IMG/VR virus record: IMGVR_UViG_3300050821_017996
Coordinates: 1 to 35,071 of that record
Strand: one strand, 5' to 3'
Source of the DNA: a virus
Length of the DNA stretch: 35,071 bases
Shown here piece after piece: positions 1,889 through 32,415 of this stretch (its first letter is position 1; each line of letters opens with the position of its first letter). A program made the translations under genes and the position numbers. The notes beneath the pieces were generated by a model, which saw nothing but the letters and a program-made list of their open reading frames with translations, ran no database searches and was not told the origin of the DNA.

Positions 1889-4747
1889 TCAGTGGCCCGC
1901 ATACGTCAACACGCTGGCCGCCGCCGCATCCGGCAGCACCCCACTTCTCACCGCTTCGTCTTGCCGTTGCCGAATGCGGACGTCCTCGTCCCATTCGGCT
2001 TTCGCCCAGCCTTCCGCCACGAGAAACTGGAACATCTCATTCTTGATGCGAAACATATCCTCGATCGTCGCGCCGTGTGGCCGCACGAGGATCTCGTCGC
2101 GGTCACTGAACCCGACTATCCATTGATTGTCATAGTTGAAATCGACGATCTCGATCCCGCTCTCCTGGGGATGGGTCCACCAGCGACTACCGGGATAGGG
2201 GATGCCCACAGCTAAGTTGCAGGAGTCGAGATAGGGCTTGACGCTCTTCAGCCAGGCCATCGTCTCGCGCGCCGTCTCGACGGTCTCGCCGGACATGCCG
2301 GCCACGAGAAAGGCGATCGTGTAGAAGCCATGCTCCTTGGCCTTCTTGAGTGCGGCGGTGTTCTGAGCAACGGTCGTGCCCTTCTTGTTCGCGTCGAGGA
2401 CTCGCTGACTCCCGGACTCGATGCCGAAGCACGTCACTTTCGTGCTCATCATCTTCAGGGATTCGGCAACATGGTCGTCCATCGTGTTGACACGGGTGTG
2501 GATGCGGCAGGCGAAGTCGTCCGGGCCGAATGCACTCTGAATGGCCGTGGCTAACTCGCGCAGTTTCGTGCGGTGCAGAGAGAATGTGTCGTCCTGAAGC
2601 TTGAAATGCCGCACACCTTTATCCATCACGAGCGCCATCTCGGCGATGATGTTGTGCGGGGAACGCCACCGCGGCGCCTGGCCAATCCAAGGGGTCGAGC
2701 AGTTATGGGTGGCGATGCCGTGCGCGAAGAACGTCTCGTGCCCGGCTACTGAGAGGGGATAGACCTGACCTCGACCCACGAAGGATACGAACTCGACACG
2801 CACCCAGTCGCCAGAAATTCTTTCGCGAGGGCAGCCGCCGAGTGCTTGTTCGCGTTCGTCCGCAGCGCATCTTCCCAAAAGTTGAGCACCGCCCACCCCT
2901 TGCCGAGATAGTCCTGCAACTGGATGGCCATATCTTCCGGCGTATGCCAGTGCCGGGATGAAAAGAGTATCGCGCGGCGCTCCGACACGTGCCGCATATC
3001 CGGATTGCGCCGCTTGCCAGACTGACACGGCCCAATCCAGAATTGCCGGCCACCACAATGGACAATCGGTAAGCCAGCCTGCTCGAAGCAGTCGAACAAT
3101 TCCAACTCTTGCGCGCTCGAGACTGCGCGAGACGGCGGACTGATCCGTCCTTCTCGATAGGCGCGCTTGAGGGATACTGCCATCCTCGCCGCAATCTCCG
3201 GTTGTCGCATTGGGTTGTTGGCCTTCATCCGCTCCGACATCGCTCTTCGACCTGGTGTATCGAGCTTCGGCTTTCGTCGCGGCTTGATCGATGCCCGTGG
3301 TGCAAGCACGTACGGCGTGGCTGGCCGCGTCGGTCCAACGGCCTTTCTTCCGTCGGCGTACTGTTGCCTGACCGTCGCCGTCATCTTGGCGAGCGTGGCC
3401 GGATCGTCCATCGGATTGCCACGCGCCATCCGCGCCATGTGCGCTGCGCGCCACTTCTCGGTGTGCGGGATCGCCCACGGATGATCGAGACGCGCCGCTT
3501 TCTGCGCCGCCATCCGATTGGCCTGATTGGCCCGCGCGGCTTCCGCCAGGCGCGCTCTCACTTCCGGTGTTGGCGTTCGACCGCGATGGGCTCGTGCTAT
3601 CGCTTCGCGCGCGCATGCGTCCGAGCACGTCAACCGGATCCAGCCCTTCGGTGATCGATTGAGATGCTGGACGCCGCAGACGACGCAGAAACGAACCTTC
3701 GCAATCCTCGGCATTCTTCCATCCTTCAGGCGTGACGAAGGGATGGTCAGCAGTCACGCCGAGGACGGTGCCATCCTCTAAGTGAAGATAGACCACATCA
3801 TCAGCCTGACGGGAAGCAATCGCTGTGACTGCGCGAGGCTCTATGAGCCCAGTCGACCGATCAAATGATAGGACGGAATCGCCGGCTTGCAGCCACTCAA
3901 TTGGCTGCTGTGAGCCATCGGCCATGTCAATGAGAGTCCCCTGCACAAAACAGTACGTGCACCGATACGGGCAGCCTCTGCTGCCGATGAGGGACATAAC
4001 AGCGGACGAGGCCTCTGGGTGCGCGGCGTTGGGAAAGTACTTCCGCTTCATCACCGCGACGCCGTCGTTGTAGATATGGTCGAGCGGCAGGAGATCCCAC
4101 GCCGGAAACGGAATCGCGTCGAGGTCCATCGCGTCGGCCTTGTCGCCGTAGTAATACGGCTGGAGCCGGCCGGCGTCCCAGTCGGTCAGCATCTGCAGCG
4201 TCGCGACCTCGCCTTCCATGACGATCACGGTGTCGAAGAGTTGACGGCCGTCCGCCGCGCGATAGTCGCGCCGCGTGGCGAGCGTGCCCTTGTAGTGGTA
4301 CGCGTCCTGTCGGCCGGCTTCTTTGACTTCTTTCGGCTCGTAGGACGGATGCGGCCCACCTGCCACGAGCAGCGCGTCAGGATTCCGGTCTTTGATATAA
4401 GCCGCCAGTTCAAGGGCTTCTCCGAACTGCGGCGTGCAGAAGCCGAACATGTGCACGTCCGCATCCATGACCGCATCGGGGAGGTGGATGTTCCCCTCGT
4501 AGCGCTTGTCGAGCATCGACGTGACGACGATCTCGTGGCCCTGCGCGCGAAGGAGCCCGGCGATGTAGAGCACGCCGAGCGGGATGTTTGTCTTGCTGTC
4601 CGCGAGCCAGGGCGACGACGGCAGAATGCAGTGGATCTTTTTGCGAGGGATGCGCCCGATCGGCAGCCCGGTGCCCGTGATCGTGCCGCAGAGACTCGCG
4701 TCACTCATCTGGTAGCCGGACGACGCCATCGTGAGCGGCTTCGCCAT
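1889..4747 (-). CDS. B12-binding radical SAM enzyme interrupted by an intein (952-residue precursor)
   Basis: Residues about 37-200 look like a cobalamin-binding domain (IPLGVLYIAGLLRAQGHEI, then MFGFCTPQFGEAL and LLVAGGPHPSY). The radical SAM core follows: the cluster motif CxxxCxxC occupies residues 259, 263 and 266. After residue 683 the barrel resumes (KLQDDTFSLHRTKLRELA, then TCFGIESGSQRVLD and GMSGETVETARETM). Residues 266-682 are an intein; removing them leaves a 535-residue enzyme with the cysteine motif restored. Such enzymes perform methyl transfers or rearrangements on sugars, lipids and peptides, and its glycosyltransferase neighbours suggest a glycan or surface substrate. The start forms TAATG with the upstream gene. 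The exact reaction is unknown. Confidence 0.85.
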   Translation of the reverse strand: MAKPLTMASSGYQMSDASLCGTITGTGLPIGRIPRKKIHCILPSSPWLADSKTNIPLGVLYIAGLLRAQGHEIVVTSMLDKRYEGNIHLPDAVMDADVHMFGFCTPQFGEALELAAYIKDRNPDALLVAGGPHPSYEPKEVKEAGRQDAYHYKGTLATRRDYRAADGRQLFDTVIVMEGEVATLQMLTDWDAGRLQPYYYGDKADAMDLDAIPFPAWDLLPLDHIYNDGVAVMKRKYFPNAAHPEASSAVMSLIGSRGCPYRCTYCFVQGTLIDMADGSQQPIEWLQAGDSVLSFDRSTGLIEPRAVTAIASRQADDVVYLHLEDGTVLGVTADHPFVTPEGWKNAEDCEGSFLRRLRRPASQSITEGLDPVDVLGRMRARSDSTSPSRSNANTGSESAPGGSRAGQSGQSDGGAESGASRSSVGDPAHREVARSAHGADGAWQSDGRSGHARQDDGDGQATVRRRKKGRWTDAASHAVRACTTGIDQAATKAEARYTRSKSDVGADEGQQPNATTGDCGEDGSIPQARLSRRTDQSAVSRSLERARVGIVRLLRAGWLTDCPLWWPAILDWAVSVWQAAQSGYAARVGAPRDTLFIPALAYAGRYGHPVAGLSRQGVGGAQLLGRCAADEREQALGGCPRERISGDWVRVEFVSFVGRGQVYPLSVAGHETFFAHGIATHNCSTPWIGQAPRWRSPHNIIAEMALVMDKGVRHFKLQDDTFSLHRTKLRELATAIQSAFGPDDFACRIHTRVNTMDDHVAESLKMMSTKVTCFGIESGSQRVLDANKKGTTVAQNTAALKKAKEHGFYTIAFLVAGMSGETVETARETMAWLKSVKPYLDSCNLAVGIPYPGSRWWTHPQESGIEIVDFNYDNQWIVGFSDRDEILVRPHGATIEDMFRIKNEMFQFLVAEGWAKAEWDEDVRIRQRQDEAVRSGVLPDAAAASVLTYAGH
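2702..3952 (-). other. Intein (417 residues) in the radical SAM [4Fe-4S] motif
   Basis: The intein begins at the cysteine codon 3952-3950 and ends with His-Asn at 2702; the +1 residue is a cysteine. Block A reads CFVQGTLIDMADGSQQPIEW with GDSVLSFD after it. Block B reads GVTADHPFVTPEGW, with the conserved T332 and H335 of the precursor. Block F reads GHETFFAHGIATHN and block G is HN followed by Cys. These are the complete class 1 Hint splicing motifs. The third cluster cysteine serves as intein residue 1, and Cys+1 replaces it after splicing. Between block B and block F the in-frame translation is a low-complexity Ser/Arg/Gly-rich stretch that covers the endonuclease gene in another frame. 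Confidence 0.9.
2746..3714 (-). CDS. EDxHD (Vsr-like) homing endonuclease, nested out of frame in the intein
   Basis: A 322-residue protein, one frame off from the intein. The ATG at 3714 follows AAGGA at ribosome-binding distance. The N-terminus has a zinc-finger-like set of cysteines at 10, 13, 30 and 34. Two repeated DNA-binding-like elements, each with NPM followed by a helix ending in YADGR or YREGR, lie near residues 100-123 and 167-190. The C-terminal catalytic part matches EDxHD endonucleases: AQELELFDCF, then FWIGP, NPDM (238-240), RHWHTPEDM (254-262) and GWAVLNFWEDAL. Its last 20 or so codons overlap the intein C-terminal blocks and look like a by-product of that frame. It likely cuts intein-free alleles to drive homing. 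Confidence 0.8.
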   Translation of the reverse strand: MPRIAKVRFCVVCGVQHLNRSPKGWIRLTCSDACAREAIARAHRGRTPTPEVRARLAEAARANQANRMAAQKAARLDHPWAIPHTEKWRAAHMARMARGNPMDDPATLAKMTATVRQQYADGRKAVGPTRPATPYVLAPRASIKPRRKPKLDTPGRRAMSERMKANNPMRQPEIAARMAVSLKRAYREGRISPPSRAVSSAQELELFDCFEQAGLPIVHCGGRQFWIGPCQSGKRRNPDMRHVSERRAILFSSRHWHTPEDMAIQLQDYLGKGWAVLNFWEDALRTNANKHSAAALAKEFLATGCVSSSYPSWVEVRSIPSQ

Positions 4748-7961: not shown

Positions 7962-8056
7962 CGCTTGCCTTTCTTAGGGGGCTTCGTGGGCGGCGGGTTG
8001 TTCTGCGTCGACATCGCGCCGACCGCAGCCTTGGGCTTCGCCTTGATGCGGGTCAT
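7958..8056 (-). CDS. Very small lysine/proline-rich protein
   Basis: A 32-codon frame from the ATG at 8056, which overlaps the collagen-like gene stop by ATGA, to a TGA that overlaps the next gene start by GTGA. The product is basic (MTRIKAKPKAAVGAM, then PPPTKPPKKGKR). The precise coupling at both ends is the main support; no conserved domain can be expected at this size. It might be a small structural or nucleic-acid-binding peptide, or simply maintain translational coupling. Confidence 0.5.
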   Translation of the reverse strand: MTRIKAKPKAAVGAMSTQNNPPPTKPPKKGKR

Positions 8057-9405
8057 CGGTAGTCCCGTCCGGGATCGCCCTTGTCACCCTTCGATCCCTG
8101 CTTGCCGTCCGTCCCGGCTGGTCCTGGCTTCCCATCACCACCGCGGCGCACCATCAACTGCCAGTCCTTGGACTCGCCAGGCTTGGCCGTCGTCGAGACG
8201 AGACACGTCCAGGCGGAGTTGCCAAACGTCACCACATCGCCGGGCGTATAGGCCTCGCCCGCCCGGTACACATTGCGATAGATCAGCACCGGGAAGGTCA
8301 GGCGGCCGCCCGTGATCGGCGTCCCGTCCTTGAAGCAGAACTCCACGGTCCGCTCATCGACCCGGACGATCTGAAGCTGCTCGAGCGTCCCGTCTCGACC
8401 GTTCAGTCCTGGTGCACCATCCTGGCCGGTGTTGCCCTTGGTACCAGCCTGCCCGTCCTGGCCCACCACCACACCCAAGGTATGCAGCGTGCCGTCCGAC
8501 AAGGTGAGGACCAGCGTCCCGTCCTTCGCGATGAGGGCGCCCGCCACGCCGACGCCGTCTTTCCCTGGCATTCCCGGCTGGCCGTCCTTCGGGGCTGGCA
8601 ACGTCCCCACCGCCCGTCGCACGGCGTCGTCCACGAGTGCGGCGATGACCTCTGGCGAGACGTCTGCACCCGCCTGGCCGTCCTGGCCATCGCGGGGCAG
8701 CGGCAGCGCAGCCACCGCTTTGGCGATCTCCGTCACGATCTGATCGGGGTCGGCGTCACGCCCGTCACGGCCGTCTTTCGGCGGCGGCACGAGCGCGGCA
8801 GCGCGCCGCACGATCTCGTCCAGGTCTACCGCGGGCGCATCATGCCCGGGTGGGCCCTGCTCCCCGTCATGGCCAGGGGGCCCATCCTTCGGCGAGGGGA
8901 CGAGCGCGGCGGCACGTTTGGCCACCTCATCAAGATCGAGGGCTGGCGCATCCTGACCTGGAGGACCGGGCTCACCGACCGGACCGGGAACGGCCGCGCG
9001 CGCCTCTACGGCCGCGAGACGTTCGAGCAGCGGCAGTTGGGCGGCCCTGATGTGCGCGAGCACAGCCGCCTTGCCGGATGCCATGCACGGACAGTCCGGA
9101 TCGCATGTCGGGCAATCCTCCGGACACGGTTCCCCGCCGGGCGTCTGCCGTTCGCACGGACAGGACGACCGTCCGCAGGAGACGCACTGACTGAACGCCT
9201 CGTCCTCGTCGTCGTCCTCGTCATCCTCGGGTTTGCTCCGGGATTCCACGACCGCCACGCGCTCACGCAGCGCGCCGATGTCGCCCCAGCGGGCTTCCCA
9301 GCCCGCGATCTGGGACTGGAGCACCTTCACGTCGGCCACGATCGGCGCCATGGCGGCCTTGATCCCGGCCGCGATCACCGCGGCAATCTTCTCGGTCTCC
9401 GTCAT
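8053..9405 (-). CDS. Collagen-like fibre/appendage protein with cysteine-rich insert
   Basis: A 450-residue protein. Residues 1-60 are a helical, coiled-coil-like segment, followed by an acidic run. Next comes a cysteine cluster (FSQCVSCGRSSCPCER and PCPEDCPTCDPDCPCM), probably metal-binding or disulfide-forming. From about residue 140 there are Gly-X-Y blocks (GPVGEPGPPGQDAP, GPPGHDGEQGPPGHDAP) alternating with helical blocks that share the pattern DLDEVAKRAAALVPSPKDG. A C-terminal domain (YRAGEAYTPGDVVTFGNSAW) resembles the carbohydrate-binding module of phage tail and chitinase proteins, followed by a final collagen tail. Next to the portal gene, it is likely a trimeric surface fibre. Confidence 0.75.
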   Translation of the reverse strand: MTETEKIAAVIAAGIKAAMAPIVADVKVLQSQIAGWEARWGDIGALRERVAVVESRSKPEDDEDDDEDEAFSQCVSCGRSSCPCERQTPGGEPCPEDCPTCDPDCPCMASGKAAVLAHIRAAQLPLLERLAAVEARAAVPGPVGEPGPPGQDAPALDLDEVAKRAAALVPSPKDGPPGHDGEQGPPGHDAPAVDLDEIVRRAAALVPPPKDGRDGRDADPDQIVTEIAKAVAALPLPRDGQDGQAGADVSPEVIAALVDDAVRRAVGTLPAPKDGQPGMPGKDGVGVAGALIAKDGTLVLTLSDGTLHTLGVVVGQDGQAGTKGNTGQDGAPGLNGRDGTLEQLQIVRVDERTVEFCFKDGTPITGGRLTFPVLIYRNVYRAGEAYTPGDVVTFGNSAWTCLVSTTAKPGESKDWQLMVRRGGDGKPGPAGTDGKQGSKGDKGDPGRDYR

Positions 9406-11255: not shown

Positions 11256-14200
11256 TTACGCGCGATAGGCCGCCGGTCCGATGTAGCGTGCCGCGCCGGT
11301 GCGCCGCAGCTTCCAGTTGATCTCCCGGGTGGCCATCAACCCGACCATGCCGGTCTGCCACAGCGAGACCAGCGACGCGCCCGTGCCTGTCAAGCCGGAC
11401 TGGGACGAACTCGTCTGCATCTCGATCGAGGCCTGATCGCTCGCGTCGATCGTCACCACGCCGTCGTCGGAGAGGTACACATCGCCCGCCTTGACCGCGA
11501 CGATGATGTCTTCGAGCGGGGACCCTTCCGAGACCATCGACTCCGAGGTGATGACCGGGAACCCGAGCAAGTTGCCGCCCGCCATCGTGATGTTCGGGAA
11601 GCTCTGCACGCCCAGGGTGTTGATCATCAAGCTCAGATTGAGCGCGTCGATCGTCGACATGATGATCACGATGTCGCTGGGATCGAGGAGCAACGTGGCG
11701 AAGGTGGCGAGCAGCGTGGCAAAGTCCGTGCGGAACGCCGCCGCGGTCGCCCCCGACGGCGCGAGCGGGGTTGTGTTGAAGGTGACCGAGGCCGGCGAGG
11801 TATTCGCCACGGCGGCTTTGGCCGGGTTGATGAAGTCGATGTCCTGTTTCACGATGACCGATTTCGTGAGGTCATCGCGGACCTTGGCTTCCGCACTCGG
11901 ATTACTGAAGCGCATCTCTTCCTTGGTCAGGATCGCCAGCGCGGCGAGGTTGGCCCACGTCAGGGTCACGTTGAACGACGTCGCCGCGCTCGGCAGCACG
12001 GGCAAGCCCTCTCCCTTCCACGCGGCCGTGAAGCCGGCCGAGAAGCCGGACACGCGCGTGTTGAACGGCACACGCCGTAGCGGGGGAATGCCGTTCAGGC
12101 CAAACTTGCCGAGGATCGTGCGCGGCCGGAGATACTCGATGAAGTCGTCCATGATGGCGTACGGCACGAGGTCGGAGAGGTTGTTCGCCGTCTGCGCCGC
12201 GCCGGCGCCGACGCCAGCCTTTTGCTGCAGGTCGATCAACTTCTCGATCCCGGCGGCGTTGTCCCCGTAGTTCTGCCGCGCAATCTGCTTGGCCTCGAAG
12301 TGATTGCCCCTGGCCATCCCCATGCACATGGCATAGCGGGCGAAGTGCACGCCCGGCGGCAGCGGCCGCTCCACCGTAATCACGCCCGCACGCGCCTGCC
12401 CGCCTTCAGCCGGCGTGCGACCGGCGACCGGCGCGGCGGCCGCCCTCTCGCGCGCTTCCGCGGCGCGCAGACGGACCAGGTGGTCGTCGATTTCCTTGAT
12501 TTCCTCGATGAGCGTGTCGTGCTCTTCCTTCTGGGCCGCATCAAGGGTCTGACCCGTCTCGGCCGACTGTTCGAGGATCGCATCCGTTGCCGCGACCTTC
12601 GCGGCGCGCGTGTTCACGAAGCCGGCAATCTGATCGGCATAACTTTTCTTCATGGGGCGTTCCGTGCGCATCTTCACGACGCGCGATAACCCCGGAACAC
12701 CGGGCGTGGGTGGACGATCGACGGCGGCCCCAGCGCCGGACACGGCGAGGCCGGTATCGAGTGATTTGATCGTCTGAATCGAGGCGTCCGTGTTCGCCGG
12801 AATCGTCACGGCGGAGAGTTCATGCCACATCCATTTCAGGTAGTGATAGCCGCCGGTGGCCTTGTCGTAGGCCTCTTCGATCGACGAGAAGCCGATCGAG
12901 AGTCCGCGGACCAGCTTCATCGTGATCGACTGCCAGGCCATATCCAGGCGGTCTTTGAGCACGCCCGGCGTGTCGGTCTGGGCGATGCGCGCCTGAATCT
13001 CGATTCCGGCCTTTGATGATTTGGCGGCGAAGACTTGGCCGATCGGCTGCCCGCTATCGTGTTGCCAGAGCAGCGGAATGGGCAACGTGAACTCGGCGCC
13101 GTCCGGCTCGACGACGTCGCCGTAGAAATCGGTCGAGGCGCTGGTCGCAATCCCCGTGATGACGCGCTGCTCCGCGTCGATGCTCTTAATCTCGAGGCGT
13201 GAGTAGGCGCGTCGACGCGTGGGGCTGGCCGTCTTCTGCTTCAGGGCCGGCGCCATCCGATACCGCGAGCCGACGCGCTGGGTGTTGGTGATGAGGTCGC
13301 GCTGCTCCGCGAGCTTCGTCAGCGCGGCCGTGAGGGCCTGGTCGAGCGGCAGGGCGTCCTGCTCGGCGATGATGGTGGCAAAGCGCGCGAGCTCTCGGAC
13401 GTGCGCGCCGCTATACCCCTGGGTCGCGGTCACCGCCCGGCCGAGGTCGGCGGGCGTCAGGCCGGGCAACCATTTCAGGAGCATCTGCTTGCGGGCGTCA
13501 TCGCTCGGCAGATCGAACTTCAGCACGTCGTGAAAGCGCCCGGGCCGGTCGATCAACGCGGCCGGTAACTGCTCGGGATAGTTCGTCGTCATCATCGTGA
13601 CAACGCCCGTACTCCGGGCGACCCCGTCCATCTCCGTCTTGATGAGATCGACGGTGGTGTCATAGAGCCAGTTGTCGATGTCCTCGAACACGACGACGGA
13701 CGGGGCGCATTCGCGGGCGAGGTCAAACGCCTGGCTGAACCCACCGAAGCTCCCGCTGTAGTGGAAGTCCCGTGAACTGACCCAGATGAAGGTGGCCTGC
13801 GCGTCATTCCGCACGATGCGCGCCGCGAGCGTCTTGCCGGTGCCTGGCGGCCCCATCAGGAGCACGCCGCGGTTCTCGAGGGCCTTGCCCTTCGTGTTGA
13901 CGAGGCTGACCACGCGGCCCAGCGCCGCGGCATTCTTGGGGTCGAGAAACAGATCGGCGAAGGTCTCGTCGGTCTTCGGCAGGAACTCCCCCGAGAGCGA
14001 GAACGCCTCGCCCTTCAGAAAATTGATCTCGCCGGCTCGCGTCTGGATCGCGCCGAGTAACGTCTGGGCGGTGCCCAGGGATCGCATCCCGTAGACGGTC
14101 ACATCTAGCCCGTACCAGGCGGGCTCGACCCGGAGCGTCGCACGCGGGCCGGTCGGCTCCGCCTGCCGGACGAACCGCATCCCATCGATGAGGAAGTCGG

Positions 14201-14534
14201 CGCTCTTGGTCGAGTTGAGCTGGATGATGTTGTAGCTCGGCGGCGTTTCTTCGCCGCGCCAGTTCAGGTTCCGGACGTCATCGACCGACCAGGCGCGCAG
14301 GACATCATCGACGGCCGTGAGGAACGCGCCCATCCGCACCGCCGGCACGCGCATCTCGCGCCGTTCGAGCGCCTTGATGTCGACCCCGAGGTATTGAGCG
14401 ACCAACGCCTCTTCGATCGATTGCGGCGGAAATTCGGCGCGCGCGACATCGAACGCCGTTGAGAGGCGCCGATTCCAGCGCAAGGGTTCGACGTGCACGA
14501 CGGTGGCACGATCGATGGCGGCGCGTAGGGTCAC
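11256..14534 (-). CDS. AAA+ ATPase / HK97 prohead protease / major capsid fusion protein
   Basis: One uninterrupted 1092-residue frame with a GTG start. Residues 1-200 are an unrecognised N-domain. Residues about 220-400 are an AAA+ ATPase: Walker A GPPGTGKT (228-235), Walker B VVVFEDID (280-287), sensor-1 MTTNYP (315-320) and arginines at 330 and 333. Residues about 443-590 are an HK97-type U35 prohead protease: H492 in LLWQHDSGQPIG, S546 in RGLSIGFSS and the HELSAVTIPANTDA motif (571-584). Residues about 628-700 are a coiled-coil delta-like domain. Residues about 720-1092 are the HK97-fold capsid. No good internal ribosome-binding site separates the parts. Protease-capsid fusions are known; the N-terminal AAA+ is unusual. 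The protease could cut the parts apart during maturation. Confidence 0.85.
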   Translation of the reverse strand: MTLRAAIDRATVVHVEPLRWNRRLSTAFDVARAEFPPQSIEEALVAQYLGVDIKALERREMRVPAVRMGAFLTAVDDVLRAWSVDDVRNLNWRGEETPPSYNIIQLNSTKSADFLIDGMRFVRQAEPTGPRATLRVEPAWYGLDVTVYGMRSLGTAQTLLGAIQTRAGEINFLKGEAFSLSGEFLPKTDETFADLFLDPKNAAALGRVVSLVNTKGKALENRGVLLMGPPGTGKTLAARIVRNDAQATFIWVSSRDFHYSGSFGGFSQAFDLARECAPSVVVFEDIDNWLYDTTVDLIKTEMDGVARSTGVVTMMTTNYPEQLPAALIDRPGRFHDVLKFDLPSDDARKQMLLKWLPGLTPADLGRAVTATQGYSGAHVRELARFATIIAEQDALPLDQALTAALTKLAEQRDLITNTQRVGSRYRMAPALKQKTASPTRRRAYSRLEIKSIDAEQRVITGIATSASTDFYGDVVEPDGAEFTLPIPLLWQHDSGQPIGQVFAAKSSKAGIEIQARIAQTDTPGVLKDRLDMAWQSITMKLVRGLSIGFSSIEEAYDKATGGYHYLKWMWHELSAVTIPANTDASIQTIKSLDTGLAVSGAGAAVDRPPTPGVPGLSRVVKMRTERPMKKSYADQIAGFVNTRAAKVAATDAILEQSAETGQTLDAAQKEEHDTLIEEIKEIDDHLVRLRAAEARERAAAAPVAGRTPAEGGQARAGVITVERPLPPGVHFARYAMCMGMARGNHFEAKQIARQNYGDNAAGIEKLIDLQQKAGVGAGAAQTANNLSDLVPYAIMDDFIEYLRPRTILGKFGLNGIPPLRRVPFNTRVSGFSAGFTAAWKGEGLPVLPSAATSFNVTLTWANLAALAILTKEEMRFSNPSAEAKVRDDLTKSVIVKQDIDFINPAKAAVANTSPASVTFNTTPLAPSGATAAAFRTDFATLLATFATLLLDPSDIVIIMSTIDALNLSLMINTLGVQSFPNITMAGGNLLGFPVITSESMVSEGSPLEDIIVAVKAGDVYLSDDGVVTIDASDQASIEMQTSSSQSGLTGTGASLVSLWQTGMVGLMATREINWKLRRTGAARYIGPAAYRA

Positions 14535-17847: not shown

Positions 17848-18243
17848 TCACAATTCAACTTGGTTCATCAGGCGGTCGAGATCGACCAGGTCATCGTCAT
17901 AATCATGCTGATATTCCCAAGTCCGCATGCCGGACTCTAAGACTTCCTCTAGACGCACCAGCAGTTCCAGTTGCAGAACGAGACCTCTCTTCAATGCGCG
18001 CCGAAACATGAAACGGCTCACGTGCCGCTGACGCTGTCGAGCGCTCACGCGCTTGTGTCTTTCGCATCGTTGGAGCACGTCACGGCCTGACAGTCCCACG
18101 TCATACACGGCGGGTGCATCGCATCGCTGAAACTTCGAATCTATCCAGCGACACGTCGGCGGGTCTGGTTCCACGAGAAAGACAGCCGTGCCGGATGGAA
18201 GTGATGCCCGCGCATCTTGGCTCAGATAAGCAGGAGTCTTCAC
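17848..18243 (-). CDS. Hypothetical protein with possible zinc site
   Basis: A 131-residue protein with a GTG start that overlaps the upstream glycosyltransferase stop by GTGA. The middle contains PPTCRWIDSKFQRCDAPAVY and LQRCERHKR, giving three cysteines and a histidine that could bind zinc. The C-terminal half is a long helix (ALKRGLVLQLELLVRLEEV) with an acidic end. It resembles small zinc-finger phage proteins but no family is recognised. Confidence 0.55.
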   Translation of the reverse strand: MKTPAYLSQDARASLPSGTAVFLVEPDPPTCRWIDSKFQRCDAPAVYDVGLSGRDVLQRCERHKRVSARQRQRHVSRFMFRRALKRGLVLQLELLVRLEEVLESGMRTWEYQHDYDDDLVDLDRLMNQVEL

Positions 18244-19025
18244 CGTAAAAACCTCGGCTGCTGCCGATCGCCATCCCAGTTTTCACCCCAGCGCGGTTGC
18301 TCGGTGCACAGGTGATAGACCACCGCCGTCGGCAGAATGGCGCGCTTGGTCGCCGGCCAGAGCGCCGCGAACAGCATGTCGTCGTGCGCCGCCGTGCCCA
18401 AGCTGTACGGGTAGTCCTTCTGGCAGGCACTGAACCAGAGCTGGAAGTACCCGATCGGCAGATAGCCGTAGAGCGTGCTGACGAGACGATGTCCGATCGG
18501 CCGGTCAACGACCGGCTTCATCAGCAAGCCGTAGGTGTGCTGCGGCACGAGCGAGCCGAGATATTGCTTCAGTTCCGCGGGCCCGATGATGTCCACCCGA
18601 TCGGCGCCGTAGATCGTGCTTTTATCGAGGTGTGTGTGGTTGAACAGGATCCGCCGGAAGTTATCCGGCAGGATGATGTCGGCATCGAGATGCAGGCGCC
18701 AGCCGTAGTACTGGAAGTACGACATGCCCGCATTGATGGCCGCGCCTTTGTTCATCGTGCGGCCGTTCTTGAAGAACAAGTCGGTCGTCACACAGTGCGC
18801 GCCGTGCTTCCGAGCCACGGACTGCGTGCGTTTGTCGTCATGGGAGGTGACGACGATCATTTGATCGAAATGTGGGTGGTTGAGGCCGAGCGTGACGTCG
18901 AGGAGGTCGTCGAACCCCACCGAGACGGTGACGCCTTCCAGGCGCAGCGCATCATCGGGCGGTTTGGCTTGACTGACCTTTTCCGGCGCTGCACCTCGCA
19001 TCATGTCGTGAATCTCGACCGACAT
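18240..19025 (-). CDS. GT-A glycosyltransferase
   Basis: A 261-residue protein preceded by GGGAGAGACG, a good ribosome-binding site. It opens DALRLEGVTVSVGFDDLLDV, and FDQMIVVTSHDDKRTQSVAR marks the donor-binding part. The metal-binding DxD is in YGWRLHLDADIILPDNFRRI near residue 113, and a conserved-looking GTAAHDDMLFAALW region follows near residue 215. It is separated from the main glycan cassette by the packaging and head genes, so it may act on a different acceptor or be an outlying member of the same pathway. Confidence 0.7.
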   Translation of the reverse strand: MSVEIHDMMRGAAPEKVSQAKPPDDALRLEGVTVSVGFDDLLDVTLGLNHPHFDQMIVVTSHDDKRTQSVARKHGAHCVTTDLFFKNGRTMNKGAAINAGMSYFQYYGWRLHLDADIILPDNFRRILFNHTHLDKSTIYGADRVDIIGPAELKQYLGSLVPQHTYGLLMKPVVDRPIGHRLVSTLYGYLPIGYFQLWFSACQKDYPYSLGTAAHDDMLFAALWPATKRAILPTAVVYHLCTEQPRWGENWDGDRQQPRFLR

Positions 19026-19035
19026 CGTCTCTCCC

Positions 19036-19275
19036 TCAGTGCACCGTCAGCGGCCGTGCGACCGGTGTCTCGAACACACATCCACGGGTATCCATCGCCT
19101 GCACGCTCAGGTTGTAGACGCCCGGCACGATCGGCACCGAGATCGCCAGCGCGCGGACGCTGCGCAAATCGCCGGTGGGGTCCGGCACGTCGCTCGCCAC
19201 GCTGACGACGCCGTTCAAGGTCAAGCGCACTTGAAGATCCACCATCGCCTGCGGTCCCACGAGCGCCGATAGCAA
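19036..19275 (-). CDS. Beta-rich C-terminal module, probable frameshifted continuation of upstream exported protein
   Basis: The 79-residue frame starts at a TTG, but the same frame is open and looks coding up to the TAA at 19387-19389 (for example GIGISSWTSPIAIGAQGTVL), with no ATG, GTG or TTG in the extra part. The product looks like an immunoglobulin-like or beta-sandwich module (VDLQVRLTLNGVVSVASDVP, then VPGVYNLSVQAMDTRG). It is probably the C-terminal part of the exported protein upstream, reached through a frameshift or a sequence error. If independent, it would be a small hypothetical protein without a convincing ribosome-binding site. Confidence 0.5.
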   Translation of the reverse strand: MLSALVGPQAMVDLQVRLTLNGVVSVASDVPDPTGDLRSVRALAISVPIVPGVYNLSVQAMDTRGCVFETPVARPLTVH

Positions 19276-19331
19276 GACCGTTCCTTGCGCGCCGATCGCA
19301 ATCGGCGAGGTCCAACTCGAGATCCCGATGC

Positions 19332-19811
19332 CTATCGGACCCTGACCGTCGTTACACCCGCCAACGATCGCCCGGGGGAAAAAGGGTTACTCGCGGCGCT
19401 CCTGGGTGAGTTCAGGCTGCCTGTCGCCGGATTCCCATTGGCAATGATCGTCGCCACGTACCCGACCCCGGCGGGCGTCGACTGCAGAAACGCCAGCACC
19501 GGCGCCACGTTCAACGGGAACGTGTAGTTATTCCCAAACGCATCCGGCGGCACCAGCGGCACCACACTGGCGACGGGCACCACGATGCCCGTCCCGAAGG
19601 CCGTCGCCGACTGCCCGACGCAGAGCGCGGGCGGACCAGCGGTGACTGACGTGCAGGCGAACAGGTCGAACTGATACGACAGCGTGTTGGCAAAGTCCGC
19701 CGCCGTCGCGGTGAAATTCGCACCGGTTGGCGCGATGACGATCTGCGCCTGAGCGGAGACGGCCCGCACCAGACACGCCACGAGCAACACCGCGCGGAAC
19801 AGAGTCTTCAT
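19332..19811 (-). CDS. Exported protein with signal peptide
   Basis: The ATG at 19811 follows GGAG; an in-frame upstream start at 19880 is less likely. The N-terminus MKTLFRAVLLVACLVRAVSA is a clear signal peptide with a predicted cut near AQA, unusual in a phage structural operon. The mature part is beta-rich (GANFTATAADFANTLSYQFD, then FACTSVTAGPPALCVGQS) with two cysteines. It may be a moron or lysogenic-conversion surface protein. The C-terminal 20 residues after the homopolymer at 19374-19383 differ in character, and a -1 shift there would continue into the adjacent beta-sandwich frame. Confidence 0.6.
   Translation of the reverse strand: MKTLFRAVLLVACLVRAVSAQAQIVIAPTGANFTATAADFANTLSYQFDLFACTSVTAGPPALCVGQSATAFGTGIVVPVASVVPLVPPDAFGNNYTFPLNVAPVLAFLQSTPAGVGYVATIIANGNPATGSLNSPRSAASNPFSPGRSLAGVTTVRVR
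19374..19383 (-). other. Homopolymer slip site (T5C5 on coding strand)
   Basis: The coding strand reads TTTTTCCCCC. The -1 frame opens just before it, after a TAA at 19387-19389, and continues to 19036 without a start codon for over 100 bases. This is what a -1 frameshift, programmed or an assembly error, would look like. Confidence 0.45.
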
Positions 19812-31779: not shown

Positions 31780-32415
31780 TCAGAACTCCGACGCCAGCAC
31801 CGGGACCTGGGTGTCCACGAACCGGTCCTTGCAATCCGCGATATCGCAGAAGCCGCAGTCCTTCTGACTCGGCGTCGTCTGCGGTCGGACGTGCGATCCG
31901 ACACTGCGAATCACGGTGTAGATCTCCTCGCTCCGCATCGACGTCAACTCTTCCGGCGCAATCGGCAGCCGATGATCCTTGTAGACAACTTCCCCGCGCA
32001 GGTTGGTCAGGTACTCCTTGACACGCGGAACCACCAGCATGTAAATCAGCACCTGCCACCAATCCGCATGCCGCTGCTGCCCGGTCTTTCCATCGACCAC
32101 CAGCGTCACACCATCTTTCACGGCGATGAGATCCGGTTGGCCGGCGAGGATGGCGCTCTTGCCTTGGAGCTTGAAGTTGTTCTGGCCTTCGTGCGTCACC
32201 TTCCACTCATCGGCCCGGAGCTCCGCCGCGCGGGCATTGACGAGCACGGTGTGGTCAGCTGTCCAGGCGGCGAGATTGAACGAGGTATCCGGGCGCTTGT
32301 CGTACTTGAAGTGCGACTTCAGCCAGGCCTGATAGAGACAGGCTTGCTCGCCGGCGAGCAGCTTCGTCAACCAACTCACCCAGATGTACGGGACGGGTCG
32401 TGGCGTCGTACTCAC
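31780..32415 (-). CDS. Cas4/RecB-like PD-(D/E)XK nuclease with Fe-S cysteines
   Basis: The GTG at 32415 overlaps the upstream stop (GTGA); the longer frame from 32916 is antisense-like and rejected. The 211-residue product has the nuclease core GQPDLIAVKDGVTLVVDGKT (D95, D108, K110) and the RecB-family QxxxY motif in WWQVLIYMLV (Q121, Y125). One cysteine near the N-terminus (C26) and three at the C-terminus in CGFCDIADC (C187, C190, C195) match the four-cysteine Fe-S clamp of Cas4 and AddB nucleases. With RecT nearby it likely resects DNA ends for annealing recombination. Confidence 0.8.
   Translation of the reverse strand: MSTTPRPVPYIWVSWLTKLLAGEQACLYQAWLKSHFKYDKRPDTSFNLAAWTADHTVLVNARAAELRADEWKVTHEGQNNFKLQGKSAILAGQPDLIAVKDGVTLVVDGKTGQQRHADWWQVLIYMLVVPRVKEYLTNLRGEVVYKDHRLPIAPEELTSMRSEEIYTVIRSVGSHVRPQTTPSQKDCGFCDIADCKDRFVDTQVPVLASEF

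Follow-up and report, generated by a model that had tools for sequence, protein, structure and literature searches.

The window, by which we mean the whole stretch of DNA analysed here, is a virus record of 35,071 bases which is classed as linear. The locus under discussion lies upstream of the terminase genes and consists of two overlapping reading frames on the minus strand: P1, in the 0 frame, which encodes a probably exported protein, and P2, an open stretch in the -1 frame (Table 1). Beside P1 we identified neither a tail gene nor a tape-measure gene. Related terminases came from 57 viral loci and one cellular record, an Acidobacteria MAG, which is the sole cellular terminase match found; at the DNA level positions 10001-35000 had no match among phage records. 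Among the structural genes, a single 1092-aa ORF (11256-14534, minus strand) combines matches to an AAA ATPase, a prohead protease and an HK97-type major capsid protein (Pfam, PHROG), and the gene adjoining that for the portal (8053-9405, minus strand) specifies collagen repeats and a CBM5/12 carbohydrate-binding module.

Table 1. Features of the P1/P2 locus and neighbouring genes, with positions in the window
Feature	Position	Strand	Basis or remark
Gene upstream of P1, possible Ig-like phage protein	19885..20325	-	PHROG 215 'structural protein with Ig domain', E 0.66 only
P1, 0-frame ORF, probably exported protein	19332..19811	-	159 aa, ATG start; ORF listing and translation
Signal-peptide-like N-terminus, ca. 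20 residues	19752..19811	-	Own hydrophobicity rule; cleavage near AVSA/QAQ by eye
AGGAG, Shine-Dalgarno-like stimulator	19399..19403	-	Sequence; 12 nt 5' of heptamer, within published spacing
TAA opening the -1 frame	19389-19387	-	Sequence
Slippery heptamer C_CCT_TTT	19380..19386	-	Sequence; X_XXY_YYZ type, in phase with P1
P2, -1 frame open stretch	19036..19386	-	116 codons + stop; open 19386-19039, TGA 19038-19036
Possible stimulatory hairpin	19336..19374	-	13 bp + 3-nt bulge; starts 5 nt 3' of heptamer
P1 stop TAG	19334-19332	-	Sequence
Rival start TTG (19275-19273) with AAGGA (19286-19282)	19273..19286	-	Sequence; AAGGA 6 nt upstream
Next gene downstream, weakly glycosyltransferase-like	18240..19025	-	Pfam Glycos_transf_2, E 0.053, below cutoff
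Putative small terminase subunit	17003-16527	-	Position before large subunit; tblastn matches, same place in related loci
Large terminase	16530-14761	-	Family matches
Capsid-protease-ATPase fusion	14534-11256	-	Pfam and PHROG
Portal	10829-9402	-	Family matches

The ATG of P1 is preceded, 8 nt upstream, by the Shine-Dalgarno sequence AAGGAG. A preliminary description of this DNA, made from the letters alone, had taken P1 for a signal-peptide protein, and this is probable, since a hydrophobicity rule of our own flagged P1 alone among the 45 listed proteins of the window. P1 had no family match in Pfam, PHROG or NCBIfam, and its structure prediction (pLDDT 36) was unusable. Coding potential was scored with a codon model trained on 25 of the window's own genes, five of 30 having been removed from training by score. 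Up to the TAA (19811-19387) P1 scores +84.7 bits over 141 codons; the 17 codons of its tail past the break (19386-19335) score -8.8 bits, a value equally low in 0.9% of true windows.

The -1 frame is indeed open from the TAA down to 19036, as had been claimed, and its TGA ends 10 nt ahead of the ATG (19025) of the next gene, a tight packing which supports P2 being a coding sequence. Its first ATG, GTG or TTG is the TTG at 19275-19273, 111 bases into the frame (110 bases free of start codons had been reported). From this TTG to 19039 the -1 frame scores +39.1 bits over 79 codons, a value which no window among 162 taken off-frame from the contig's own genes reached, nor any of the open dinucleotide shuffles made with two backgrounds (239 and 257), so that the protein-like content ascribed to it is borne out. 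The first 37 codons (19386-19276) are weaker, at +5.2 bits; 0.8% of off-frame windows and 6.7% of open shuffles score as high, and with the second background the score is only +0.3 (5.7% of shuffles). With a five-frame background the codon advantage of the part of P2 before the TTG is 3 bits only. The codon profile of possible switch points peaks at 19413, upstream of the TAA and away from the heptamer; a single frame switch there is impossible because it lies before the TAA. Summed over the locus, one protein switched at 19386 obtains 128.8 bits versus 114.0 for two separate genes. The main part of P2 is thus coding, and its beginning is less certain.

The switch had previously been placed at a T5C5 run (19383-19374, minus strand). 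We revise this point: the slippery site which is in phase with P1 is C_CCT_TTT, which the run overlaps. A run of five T is short for transcriptional slippage. At the break P1 reads AAC CCT TTT TCC, and a -1 slip leads straight into P2, joining 144 residues of P1 to the 114 encoded by 19380-19039; the resulting 258 aa agree with the earlier estimate of about 257. Heptamers of the form XXXYYYZ occur in phase 14 times in the 8743 codons of 34 own genes, P1 counted, and any such heptamer is present in 12 of 441 19-codon windows of these genes. According to PMC4066793, C_CC.U_UU.U is among 18 motifs picked because they shift at above 0.10% when no stimulator is present and are under-represented in E. 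coli genes; the class H_HH.U_UU.Y belongs to the top bacterial shift-prone set.

The distance from Shine-Dalgarno sequence to shift site is given as 9-14 nt for -1 shifts in a passage of PMC5009743, and the AGGAG upstream of the heptamer falls within it. In the window three of 36 shift-prone heptamers have a Shine-Dalgarno match of at least five bases 8-15 nt upstream; in 59 related loci, some of them near-copies of one another, the figure is 31 of 1086. Heptamer and Shine-Dalgarno sequence together were found in one of 35 comparable ORF overlaps in the window, this being the P1/P2 site, and in none of 386 in the related loci, where nine of the 386 carried a shift-prone heptamer with or without a Shine-Dalgarno match; these overlaps are mechanical ORFs with a long -1 continuation and not proven genes, and the cut-offs for both motifs were set after the site had been seen. 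The looser Shine-Dalgarno motifs of PMC4066793 are passed by 1115 of 6958 random in-phase positions (16%).

Downstream of the heptamer the 45-nt fold containing the hairpin has a free energy of -16.2 kcal/mol, which 13 of 200 shuffles equalled or surpassed (z -1.71). Other windows and repeat runs gave z values from -2.4 to +0.3, the support varying with window size, and since the values spread so widely the hairpin is listed as possible. Stimulatory elements, whether an upstream Shine-Dalgarno sequence or a 3' structure, help a shift but do not accompany every one.

A single-sequence AlphaFold2 model of P2 is all-beta with eight strands (pLDDT 57, pTM 0.49). Foldseek searches with this model in two libraries gave no match at E ≤ 0.001, the matches above this value including phage Ig-like and Fn3-like proteins, and P2 had no match in the family libraries, Pfam among them. 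A repeat of Ig-like appearance in another genome (L067) aligns weakly to P2 residues 17-96. The beta-sandwich module proposed in the preliminary description is therefore plausible but weak. We regard the 114-aa extension as probably an Ig-like domain, a designation which, because of the low pLDDT, the weak fold matches and the lack of a family match, is a reasonable guess and not a result.

Homologues were sought widely. With P1, P2 and the next gene as queries for related loci none was confirmed; tblastn in phage records gave no match at E ≤ 1; and tblastn and phmmer in the related loci revealed no convincing homologue of P1 or P2 among the matches listed, a P2 match of 33 residues in locus L045 (E 0.014) being taken as chance. 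No match was found in 20 records queried with P2 and P1, in further stretches of related contigs at E ≤ 1, or among PDB sequences queried with P2; 27 further records queried with P2 only yielded one match, at E 0.448. In 396 genomes from the phylum of the cellular terminase match, P2 gave matches in five at E ≤ 0.01 (best 3.5e-4) and P1 in four (best 3.3e-3), both at chance level for a set of this size. Two degenerate DNA patterns were run over viral contigs: the first matched once, in a frame with about 50 codons from stop to stop which by eye was unrelated, and the second five times, none related by eye. Among the related contigs scanned, three (L028, L077, L079) carry an exported protein, 141-143 aa in length, and after it genes that have starts of their own; the exported proteins of L077 and L079 are near-identical. 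When the end of P1 was compared with these proteins, 79%, 34% and 38% of shuffles, respectively, were as good; since shuffling shows no similarity to P1, the likeness is an analogy of size and layout only. Directly after the short exported protein of L077 lies the gene for a pectate-lyase-like protein of the tailspike type with a signal-peptide-like start (11349-13154, minus strand), of which L079 has a near copy.

The explanation which we favour, at a probability of roughly 60%, is programmed -1 ribosomal frameshifting that makes two forms of one protein, of 159 and 258 aa. Ribosomes translating P1 would pause with the AGGAG paired to 16S rRNA, perhaps with the hairpin ahead of them, and the tRNAs for Pro (P site) and Phe (A site) on C_CCT_TTT would move back by one base and pair with CCC TTT. 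The majority of ribosomes would terminate at the TAG at 19334 and release the short form, while a fraction, at whatever rate the shift may occur, would continue in the -1 frame and complete the long form with its 114-aa C-terminal, probably Ig-like domain. Both forms would keep the signal-peptide-like start and so would leave the cytoplasm; the extra domain might plausibly bind cell-surface sugars or particles weakly.

The same arrangement could arise from a one-base insertion or deletion in the C3T5C5 run, whether introduced in error by sequencing or assembly or present as a natural mutation, which splits a single two-domain gene. The break does fall in a homopolymer-rich stretch and the 0-frame codon signal is lost at about the same place, and since indels also favour such runs the heptamer alone is not independent evidence for frameshifting. 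An indel does not, however, predict an AGGAG at 12 nt, given how few of the shift-prone heptamers in the related loci have such a sequence. Against it there is also a gene-level scan in which no other segment of the contig exceeded 10 bits beyond its best start, and hence no second break was seen, a weak argument because the same scan fails to flag P2 itself. Frameshifting and homopolymer error had been offered earlier as even choices; the continuation into the -1 frame stands, but heptamer and AGGAG together tilt the balance to a programmed shift, and we consider an indel unlikely.

Slightly less probable again is that the locus holds two genes, P1 stopping at its TAG and a separate 79-aa protein starting from the TTG at 19275. 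The AAGGA ahead of this TTG lends it some credit, as a Shine-Dalgarno match of at least five bases is found at six of the 34 own genes versus 3.7% of 164 internal TTGs; TTG is apparently the start of the putative small terminase gene as well, the five-frame codon score drops by only the 3 bits mentioned above if translation begins at 19275, and the exported proteins of related phages, of similar length and not detectably homologous to P1, are without an extension. Against this, TTG initiates one of the 34 listed own genes. The start would fall at residue 38 of P2, inside a strand predicted at 36-43 in what is a low-confidence model, and the stretch which aligns, weakly, from residue 17 with the L067 repeat would be lost. 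It would also leave 56 nt untranslated which are nevertheless mildly coding-like (+4.3 and +3.1 bits over 18 codons, levels reached by 10% and 8% of open shuffles), and would reduce heptamer and Shine-Dalgarno sequence to coincidence. That the -1 frame is untranslated and open by chance in GC-rich DNA is very improbable: although the 35 kb contain 128 ORFs of at least 100 aa, many of them overlapping and hence fortuitous (real genes are counted in), the codon score from 19275 was equalled by none of the off-frame windows or open shuffles and a 306-nt gap would precede the next gene.

If programmed frameshifting is accepted, the nearest parallels are the Ig-like C-terminal extensions made by -1 shifts in T3 gene 10 and Lactobacillus phage A2 (a section of PMC5009743, citing Fraser 2006, 2007); the same section lists frameshifted coat and tail proteins in the Listeria phages A118, A500 and PSA. 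As in T3 and A2, a -1 shift shortly before the first ORF ends would give some copies of a short protein a probable Ig-like domain. In these phages and those of Listeria, so far as that section describes them, the carriers are major coat or tail proteins, whereas P1 is small, has a signal-peptide-like start and matches no virion family; and the Ig fold of P2, unlike that of the T3 and A2 type of extension, is putative. As in phage lambda, where gpG and gpGT of the tail chaperone arise from a single start by a -1 shift, two proteins would be produced from one start, but P1 differs in lying upstream of the terminase genes, with no tail or tape-measure neighbour identified, and in its probably exported product. 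The layout of upstream Shine-Dalgarno sequence, slippery heptamer and 3' stem-loop resembles the -1 signals of E. coli dnaX and of the IS911 type as presented in parts of PMC5009743 and PMC4066793. Compared with these, the heptamer is C_CCU_UUU and not A_AAA_AAG, the hairpin is less secure, and the gene is unrelated. The Shine-Dalgarno spacing in dnaX is about 10 nt.

Frameshifted Ig extensions on phage proteins are already established, and the exported carrier is the unusual part. A literature search for a signal-peptide phage protein with a frameshifted Ig-like domain found nothing plainly on the subject, which is no proof that it has gone unpublished. If the reading is true, it adds another Ig extension made by frameshifting, this one in a lineage of uncultured phages for which an Acidobacteria genome record is the sole cellular terminase match found, and suggests that this device is not confined to coat and tail proteins. 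We put forward, more tentatively, that P1 may be a Sec-exported phage protein, neither capsid nor tail, which exists in two forms, the -1 signal dosing an Ig-like module on a secreted factor and not on the virion.

Elsewhere in the window, several glycosyltransferase-like genes are found between 484 and 7961 on the minus strand, of which the one at 7344-7961 matches a PHROG named alpha-2,3-sialyltransferase. A gene at 31780-32415 (minus strand) specifies a PD-(D/E)XK nuclease with a weak Cas4-like match (Pfam). Lastly, the 952-aa radical SAM protein encoded by 1889-4747 (minus strand) has a B12-binding domain and contains an apparent intein, with Hint and intein-splicing matches over residues 262-682.
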